A stretch of DNA of 59,673 bases, taken from contig JADFOW010000001.1 of the NCBI GenBank assembly GCA_022562615.1, forward strand, positions 1 through 59,673. Direction: 5' to 3'. This DNA is from Nitrososphaerota archaeon. Its GTDB lineage: Archaea; Thermoproteota; Nitrososphaeria; Nitrososphaerales; Nitrosopumilaceae. This document shows positions 52,707-54,982 of this stretch, piece by piece. How positions within the stretch are numbered: position 1 is the stretch's first letter; every line of letters begins with the position of its first letter. Made by a program: the position numbers and the translations under genes. The notes under the pieces are model-generated. The model did no database searches and was not told where the DNA came from. It saw nothing but the letters and a program-made list of their open reading frames with translations.

Positions 52707-53354
52707 TCAAAATGTTGAAGATGAAGATTGAGACGAAAGGCCAGTTTGAGTGGGTACAGATGGGAATTTTTCTCCAATCTGTTGTTCAGCAACTGCAGAA
52801 GCTTCTTGAAGAATCTTATCAGTTTCTTCACTTGCAGAATCAGTCTCTAGGCTAAACGAGTCTCCTGCCAAGGAGTCCATCATTAATCCATTAAGCGTCT
52901 GTGTCATTGAATTCAATTCTGCGTCTGCTTCTGGCATGAATCGGCCAAGTGATGACTTCAATCCCTTCATTGTAGACATCGCAGGTCCTATTGCTACCAT
53001 TGCATCGCCAAGGTCATGAATAGTTGTCAATCGTAATTGAACTTGTTCTAATGACATTCTTGCATTGCCGAGCATTTTTGTAACTTTACGAATTTCAGCT
53101 AATTCGTTTGACAAAACCTTACTTGTGCTAGTATCATGTTGCTGCATTGCATTCACGATTCTCTTGAAGAGTTTTGCATCTCTTTCGTGCAGTTTTCCTA
53201 ACATCGAGTCCATTTTGCTAATTTGGACTTGAAGTTTATTTACTGCTGTTTGAATTCGTGGTTTTAATGCACCTTGTGGTTGTACTGCATCACGTATTCT
53301 GCCAGTTACACTTTGAGTCTCTTGTCGAGACCAAGTCTTGTCGAAGTTTGGCAT
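52707..53354 (-). CDS. cdvB: ESCRT-III-like cell-division protein CdvB
   Basis: A 215-residue Snf7-like protein. Long helices from about 20-140 (RIQTAVNKLQVQISKMDSMLGKLHERDAKLFKRI, SNELAEIRKVTKMLGNARMSLEQVQLRL) carry the alternating charge and hydrophobic pattern of archaeal ESCRT-III. A shorter amphipathic helix (MPEADAELNSMTQTLNGLM) follows. The tail is Ser/Gln-rich (SSQSSSSTF) and no C-terminal winged helix is seen, so this may be a shorter paralogue. Cdv proteins form the division machinery in many thaumarchaea. It is divergent from the racemase-like gene. Confidence 0.88.
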   Translation of the reverse strand: MPNFDKTWSRQETQSVTGRIRDAVQPQGALKPRIQTAVNKLQVQISKMDSMLGKLHERDAKLFKRIVNAMQQHDTSTSKVLSNELAEIRKVTKMLGNARMSLEQVQLRLTTIHDLGDAMVAIGPAMSTMKGLKSSLGRFMPEADAELNSMTQTLNGLMMDSLAGDSFSLETDSASEETDKILQEASAVAEQQIGEKFPSVPTQTGLSSQSSSSTF

Positions 53355-53460
53355 GTTGGTTAATTTAGAAATTGATTCTTAATGAGAGGTGTGTATTTAG
53401 ATCAACTTTAGACTAAATTTAGCTAACAAACTATTATTCGGGTTTAAGAAATTGACATCC

Positions 53461-54225
53461 ATGGCTAGAATTGTTGTTTTTGATTCAGGGTTAGGGTCTT
53501 TATCTATAATCAAATCCATACAAAAGATCTGTAAGATAGAAATAATCTATTTTGCTGATCAACAAAACTTCCCATACGGAAATAAATCAAAAAAACAATT
53601 AGAGCAAATAATTAAAAAGTCCATTGAATTACTTGAAAAAAAATTCAACCCAGAGTTAATTGTAATAGGATCAAACACCCCTACCATAATGCTTGATATA
53701 ACGAATGAGAGAATTATTGGAGTAAATCCCCCCCTCAAAGAAGCTGTCAATAAATCCAGAACCAAAAATATAGCAATACTAGCTACGGAAACTGTGATAA
53801 AAAGTAAAAATTTATCAAATTATATAATAAATTGTAAATTATCAAGAAAAATTAAAGTCCATAAAATTAATGCGTCAAATCTTATTCAACTAGTAGAATC
53901 TGGAAAATTTATTAAAAATAAAAAATATTGTAAAAAAATAATTAAAAATTCATTAAATGATGTTTTTTTAAAAAACAACATAGATATCGTAACTTTATCA
54001 AGTACTCATTTGTCATTCTTAAAAACTATTTTAGAATTTGAATTTCCTAACATTCAGTTTATTGATCCGGCAGATAATATTGCAAGAAAAATTTTTAAAA
54101 AAATAAAAACTAAACAATCTAAAAGAAATTTATTGAGAATTTTTTCTTCAGATAAAACTAAAAATTTTCAAAGTAATTTAAGTAAACTTGGTATTAAAAA
54201 TAAAATAAAATTTCTATCTATTTAA
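53461..54225 (+). CDS. Glutamate racemase-like protein lacking both catalytic cysteines
   Basis: About 254 residues aligning along most of MurI: VFDSGLGSLS (usually DSGxGGLS), YFADQQNFPYG, then VIGSNTPT where racemases have ACNTA, and LSSTHLSFL where they have LGCTHYP. Thus both acid/base cysteines are Ser (codons TCA at 53671 and AGT at 54001). A proline-containing PPLKEAV and DPADNIARKI also fit the fold. A normal racemase activity is unlikely; a serine-based or non-catalytic role is possible. The longer TTG 53452 start adds three residues. Its 3' end overlaps cbiF by eight bases, convergently. Confidence 0.85.
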   Translation: MARIVVFDSGLGSLSIIKSIQKICKIEIIYFADQQNFPYGNKSKKQLEQIIKKSIELLEKKFNPELIVIGSNTPTIMLDITNERIIGVNPPLKEAVNKSRTKNIAILATETVIKSKNLSNYIINCKLSRKIKVHKINASNLIQLVESGKFIKNKKYCKKIIKNSLNDVFLKNNIDIVTLSSTHLSFLKTILEFEFPNIQFIDPADNIARKIFKKIKTKQSKRNLLRIFSSDKTKNFQSNLSKLGIKNKIKFLSI

Positions 54226-54982
54226 TTTTTGATTTTCTATATCCATGACTAAATTTTTTATCATAAAGCCTTGAATATTCATACGATTTAGAATCAATTA
54301 CATTACTAATAATTACAATCGCTGTTCTGGTAATTTTTTCATCTCTAACCTTTTTTGTAATATTATCAAGTGTACCTTTAACAATTTTTTGATCTTTCCA
54401 CGTTGCCCTATACACTACAGCTACCGGAGTTGATTTTTTATATCCTCCCGCAAGTGATTCTTTTACGATATCAGACAATAGATGAACGCTCAGATAAAAA
54501 ATCAAGGTAGCCTTGTGTTTTGCCAATTCAGAAATTTTTTCTCTTGTTGGTACCTTTGTTCTTGATTCTGCCCTAGTCACAATAATCGTTTGAGTTACGC
54601 CTGGAAGAGAAAGTTGGGTTCCTAATTCAGCAGCTGCGGCTAAAAAAGCAGTCACACCAGGTACAACTACTGAGGATATTCCTTTTTTTTGTAGGTTATC
54701 AATTTGCTCTTTTATTGCTCCATAGATTGAGGGATCTCCATCATGTAATCGTACGACAAATTTGTTTTTTTTTGCATTTTTATACAAAATGTCAAAAATT
54801 TCTTCTCTTACTAAACCGGCAGCATTATGTAGTTTTCCTTTTTTGCAGAGTTTTAGGATTGTAGGAGGAATTAAAGAACCTGAATAAACTACAATGTCTG
54901 CTTTTTGAATTAATTTTTTTGCTTTAACTGTGATTAGTTCTGGATCACCTGGACCACATCCAACAAAGAAAACATTAGACAC
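54218..54982 (-). CDS. cbiF: Cobalt-precorrin-4 C11-methyltransferase CbiF
   Basis: This 254-residue SAM enzyme has the tetrapyrrole-methylase motifs VFFVGCGPGDPELITVKA (4-21), VVYSGSLIP near 31-39 and VVRLHDGDPSIYGAI near 76-90, and an SLPGVTQTIIVTRAESRT stretch typical of CbiF. It methylates C11. The first eight bases overlap the CbiL stop. It is convergent with the racemase-like gene. Confidence 0.95.
   Translation of the reverse strand: MSNVFFVGCGPGDPELITVKAKKLIQKADIVVYSGSLIPPTILKLCKKGKLHNAAGLVREEIFDILYKNAKKNKFVVRLHDGDPSIYGAIKEQIDNLQKKGISSVVVPGVTAFLAAAAELGTQLSLPGVTQTIIVTRAESRTKVPTREKISELAKHKATLIFYLSVHLLSDIVKESLAGGYKKSTPVAVVYRATWKDQKIVKGTLDNITKKVRDEKITRTAIVIISNVIDSKSYEYSRLYDKKFSHGYRKSKIK

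Follow-up and report, generated by a model that had tools for sequence, protein, structure and literature searches.

The window, by which we mean the whole stretch of 59,673 nucleotides that was analysed, encodes a protein with the predicted fold of the glutamate racemase MurI in which both catalytic cysteine residues are replaced by serine (Ser71 and Ser181). In MurI these two cysteine residues act as proton acceptor and donor. The replacement was found without exception among homologues from ammonia-oxidizing archaea, a group whose cells rank with the most abundant of ocean and soil. We give an even chance to the reading, suggested by the sequence, that the protein is an enzyme acting on a glutamate-like acid through serine hydroxyls and is no working two-thiolate glutamate racemase.

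The 'GLUR' protein of ammonia-oxidizing archaea (A9A551 of N. maritimus), whose gene presence and bacterial ancestry have been published (PMC12363236), belongs to the same family as the window protein. In that 2025 study, D-glutamate cycling was built on this gene, which in Mariana Trench sediment was counted as 32-72% of glutamate racemase; the archaeal protein was said to have the necessary catalytic residues, and its use of D-glutamate was inferred. The sequence contradicts this claim, because both catalytic cysteine residues are serine and published cysteine-to-serine mutants of such racemases lose ~10^3-fold activity or more. Judged by these residues, the databases and the 2025 study are probably mistaken in taking the family for a D-glutamate enzyme. 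The main text of PMC12363236 is silent on the double serine, and our literature search found no paper noting it, although one may exist. As far as the literature searched goes, the family was known, as were its bacterial origin and its occurrence in ammonia-oxidizing archaea, and the double serine is new here. If the protein lacks the proton-transferring residues, both the inference of D-glutamate cycling and the K01776 annotation need revision.

Fold and active-site positions of the window protein

In an alignment with B. subtilis RacE (1zuw) and Aquifex MurI (1b73), Ser71 (in GSNTPT) and Ser181 (in LSSTHLS) fell exactly on the two catalytic cysteine residues, and DSGLGSLS stood in place of the MurI loop DSGxGGL[ST]. 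The preliminary description of this DNA had claimed both replacements, the altered loop and an intact frame. All three were borne out, the first by this alignment and by 120 homologues, the second by the presence of Ser13 throughout the clade and the third by a frame open from end to end (Table 1). Of the core landmarks that it listed, PYG proved invariant, whereas PADNIARKI lies in a variable stretch and is no MurI landmark; the invariant landmarks are Asp8, Gly10, Gly12, PYG (38-40), Glu146 and Thr182-His183.

Table 1. Positions in the window of the gene, its active-site motifs and its neighbours
Feature	Position	Strand	Remarks
Double-serine glutamate-racemase-fold protein, 254 aa	53461..54225	+	Intact ORF, ATG at 53461, stop ends at 54225
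DSGLGSLS loop, residues 8-15; S13 in place of MurI Gly	53482..53505	+	Ser13 throughout the clade (120/120); Gly in canonical MurI (11/11)
P38-Y39-G40, carboxylate-binding loop of MurI	53572..53580	+	Invariant in the clade and in canonical MurI
G70-S71-N72-T73-P74	53668..53682	+	S71 (TCA, 53671-53673) at the site of the first catalytic Cys
E146, counterpart of the MurI catalytic-site Glu	53896..53898	+	120/120
L179-S180-S181-T182-H183-L184	53995..54012	+	S181 (AGT, 54001-54003) at the site of the second catalytic Cys
Snf7/CdvB-like (ESCRT-III) paralogue, divergent neighbour	52707..53354	-	Pfam Snf7 0.00059, below the curated cut-off
CbiF-like tetrapyrrole methylase, convergent, 8 bp overlap	54218..54982	-	Pfam TP_methylase 4.6e-51

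Profile searches placed the protein next to glutamate racemase. It matched the NCBIfam glutamate racemase equivalog TIGR00067 at 1.5e-35 with 122.8 bits, below the cut-off of 146.65 bits; some f3 relatives score above this cut-off, yet are also Ser/Ser. Pfam gave no match for the window protein, and PF01177 (Asp/Glu/hydantoin racemase) matched neither this protein nor any other of the window genome; a Fusobacterium member of the family (see below) reached 25 bits against PF01177, for which the gathering cut-off is 31. A sequence search of the PDB returned only glutamate racemases (1zuw at 2.6e-17). The predicted structure (pLDDT 77, pTM 0.73) was compared with the PDB using Foldseek, and the best 47 matches were all glutamate racemase chains (E-values down to 1.6e-13, TM-scores up to 0.77), with identities mostly of 20-24%. 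In the model, Ser71 and Ser181 are predicted to lie just after strand ends (E66-70 and E176-179), the usual place of both cysteine residues. As the pocket loops 38-40 and 72-76 were modelled with pLDDT under 50, the model was used for the fold and not for pocket geometry. By this prediction the window protein is a MurI fold; it has the helper and anchor residues of MurI (Asp, PYG, Glu and Thr-His) and lacks the two catalytic cysteine residues.

Conservation of the double serine

We compared 120 distinct relatives, 118 from ammonia-oxidizing archaea and two from bacteria; one of the 120 sequences is truncated ahead of the second site. Position 71 was serine in 120 of 120 and position 181 in 119 of 119, with no alanine, glycine, threonine or cysteine at either, whereas all 11 canonical MurI sequences (from bacteria, a phage record and one Thermoproteota genome) had Cys/Cys and a glycine at position 13. 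Ser13, Asp8, Gly10, Gly12, Tyr30, Asp33, Pro38-Tyr39-Gly40, Glu146, Leu179, Thr182 and His183 were equally invariant, the Thr182-His183 pair in 119 of 119, and the invariance of Ser71, Ser181, Asp8, Glu146, Thr182, His183 and PYG held down to ~30% identity. The rest of the pocket was fully conserved, all MurI pocket residues being kept except both cysteine residues, S13, P74 and L184. Thus the two findings that, according to the preliminary description, would have counted against it, namely cysteine-bearing homologues and an unconserved pocket, were not encountered in the clade. The serine pair is fixed across the ammonia-oxidizing archaea and is no oddity of one genome. The presumed Nitrosopumilus maritimus SCM1 protein has it too, within VASNTPSL (ASNTPS) and LSSTHLPF.

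The codons were as uniform as the residues, with TCN at Ser71 in every scored sequence (119) and AGY always at Ser181, as expected if each site changed once. Cysteine is one base away from AGY (AGY to TGY) at Ser181 and from TCY at Ser71, and no reversal was seen.

Some variation was found around the two sites. Position 72, asparagine in MurI, is isoleucine or valine at six loci (L049, L036, L054, L105, L107 and L057), which suggests from the sequences that the ligand-binding side changed within the clade in several lineages. The equivalents of Ser9 and Thr73 are alanine in both bacterial members. Because of these substitutions, with isoleucine at position 72 in several lineages, the ligand may differ among members. 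In one soil subgroup (L045, L048, L051 and L054) the motif reads LCSTH, with a cysteine at the equivalent of residue 180, one before Ser181 and a non-catalytic position.

Distribution, origin and selection

Of 121 sampled genomes from the family to which the window belongs (Nitrosopumilaceae by tree labels), 97 have the gene. Across the class it was detected in 124 of 200 genomes, only two of which lie outside the order with the ammonia oxidizers, and these two matched weakly (1e-4 to 4e-5). The double serine also occurs beyond the archaea, as both Phyllobacterium zundukense (WP_262291953.1) and Fusobacterium vincentii encode Ser/Ser proteins with the motifs FDAGxGS, ASNAPS and LSSTHLP. These two scored 217 bits against the archaeal profile, compared with 108 for a canonical MurI of the same phylum. 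The Fusobacterium record also encodes a canonical MurI (219 bits), so its double-serine copy is a second, different protein. This record (NZ_CP084075.1; L178/L179) is a 2.1 Mb F. vincentii chromosome filed as a plasmid and almost without annotation. Spread by viruses or mobile elements was considered and rejected: no relatives were found in viral contigs, and the plasmid matches consisted of the two bacterial members and of sequences of canonical MurI type.

In a tree built from an alignment with the three motif blocks removed, a branch supported at 100/99.6 separated 24 of 24 sampled double-serine proteins from the other sequences. On these sequences, the double-serine clade is an old, thiol-free offshoot of glutamate racemase with a single origin.

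Purifying selection on the gene is evident, with dN/dS of ~0.03-0.28 in the closest pairs and a median of 0.29 over all pairs with dS of 0.2-1.5. The gene was frameshifted in place in two complete genomes (L108 and L109) and reduced to a short remnant of 22-32 codons in a third (L193); in the complete genome of L196 it was cleanly gone, CdvB and CbiF flanking the empty site. The losses at L108, L109, L193 and L196 were independent. At L100 the copy looks broken, and the cbi genes there are frameshifted too, suggesting a sequence error. Since several good genomes lack an intact copy, the function is dispensable; the gene is useful but not essential.

Genome context

The CbiF-like gene next to the racemase-like gene opens a cbiF-cbiL-cbiT run, an order found in most f1 loci, not all. 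In nearly all f1 and f2 loci the CdvB paralogue lies directly on the other side in divergent orientation, and it is kept in many lineages whose cbi genes moved away; most f3 loci do not have this pairing. In the window the two divergent genes are separated by an intergenic stretch of ~106 bp (52707-53461 with the CdvB/Snf7-like gene). A link to cobalamin synthesis through cbiF/L/T is unsupported, since in several lineages the gene and cbiF lie apart and L196 keeps CbiF without it, and a family-4 UDG gene, convergent in some lineages, was judged incidental.

Nitrososphaeraceae-like genomes have different surroundings. At four such loci a HyuA-like hydantoinase/oxoprolinase gene (Pfam Hydantoinase_A 5.5e-52) follows on the same strand 38-85 bp downstream; in the soil-type loci L136 (1812-3974), L137, L139 and L141 the HyuA-like gene is often followed by PRPP synthetase and an RNase Z-like gene. 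The window genome encodes no Hydantoinase_A protein. It also has no protein with the Mur ligase domain PF08245 that could make use of D-glutamate, a domain for which control genomes gave matches; a search for D-glutamate cyclase gave no match in any control genome. The neighbours differ between families, and the context thus gives leads and names no substrate.

Possible activity of the double-serine protein

Cysteine-to-serine changes have proved costly in such racemases. In L. fermenti MurI they reduced activity 10^3-fold, as quoted in PMC6927343, and in OpaE the C90S mutant kept 4.8% of the activity and the C199S and double mutants ≤0.3% (PMC12661438). A glutamate racemase with two serine residues is therefore expected to be very poor. 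At the same time, the invariant Asp8, Glu146, Thr182, His183 and PYG are more than a mere structural relic needs. Both serine residues and the proton-transfer helpers have been held without exception and with no return to cysteine, which favours a different chemistry over either a relic or a slow racemase. In the reading that we infer, racemase activity would have been lost, a glutamate-like dicarboxylic or ureido acid would be bound between both domains, and the hydroxyls of Ser71 and Ser181 would do the chemistry, polarised by Asp8 and by Glu146/His183. Isomerisation, elimination or hydrolysis would be likely reactions, on a substrate that surpasses glutamate in the acidity of its C-H or in its leaving group. 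That an altered racemase had been retained for another role, as the preliminary description proposed, is supported by the conserved pocket and by the lack of cysteine at both sites throughout the clade; nothing decides between its three options of a new substrate, a serine-based reaction and a binding role. More tentatively, and a little short of an even chance, we propose a cofactor-free and thiol-free family that would have arisen from glutamate racemase by the double cysteine-to-serine change, with a reaction new to the superfamily. Such a family would be fixed in ammonia-oxidizing archaea and scattered among bacteria, and would so far have passed for a D-glutamate enzyme.

Next in rank, and rather unlikely, is a relic without catalytic activity that would bind glutamate or a similar acid and thereby act as sensor or regulator for a partner protein. 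The loss of both thiolates, the retained pocket anchors PYG and Asp8, the dispensability of the gene and the conserved ESCRT-III paralogue divergent from it in most loci would fit such a role. However, pure binding is not expected to hold both serine residues, Glu146 and His183 invariant over 120 sequences, the protein has no effector domain, and most f3 loci lack the CdvB pairing.

Less probable still is a true glutamate racemase that works slowly, with serine doing the proton transfers, as PMC12363236 implies. The MurI pocket is kept apart from the few positions named above, slow-growing cells might tolerate a 1000-fold slower enzyme, and a good AlphaFold superposition on 2GZM has been reported (PMC12363236). 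The catalytic-residue claim of that paper nevertheless conflicts with ASNTPS and LSSTHLP in the presumed SCM1 sequence, and the measured cysteine-to-serine mutants are ~10^3-fold down or dead. Moreover, selection for racemisation should in time bring back cysteine, which is often one base off, and the window genome is without a Mur ligase domain.

A place in a hydantoin/5-oxoproline pathway, where the protein would racemise or isomerise a cyclic ureide or lactam with a C-H acidic enough for non-thiol catalysis, is suggested by the HyuA-like gene in the four Nitrososphaeraceae-like loci and is very unlikely; it cannot be the general role, because the pairing is missing from other loci and no Hydantoinase_A is encoded in the window genome. 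Local decay, a sequencing error or an assembly error, to which the broken copies in some genomes might point, is refuted by Ser/Ser fixed in 120 distinct sequences with intact frames under purifying selection.

Comparison with known systems

Allantoin and hydantoin racemases and OpaE share with the window protein the two-domain fold and two facing catalytic residues; unlike it, they need Cys/Cys, and serine mutants of OpaE are nearly dead (PMC12661438). Arylmalonate decarboxylase (AMDase), of the same superfamily, is a case in which replacement of a catalytic cysteine resulted in a different reaction, one cysteine-to-glycine change accompanying it (PMC4996985). However, AMDase keeps one cysteine (Gly74/Cys188), a signature of glycine at the first site and cysteine at the second that is found neither in the window protein nor in its clade, which is Ser/Ser with a MurI-like pocket. 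The closest likeness is to MurI/RacE (EC 5.1.1.3, TIGR00067), with the same fold, length, DSGxG, PYG, (S/C)-N-T, Glu146 and (S/C)-T-H layout. The window family differs from it by serine for cysteine twice, Gly13 to Ser, Ala74 to Pro and Tyr/Phe184 to Leu, and the window protein by a score below the family cut-off and by a host without murein or a Mur ligase domain. The family is thus a natural version of the classical mutagenesis, a two-thiolate racemase fold from which both thiols have long gone under selection.
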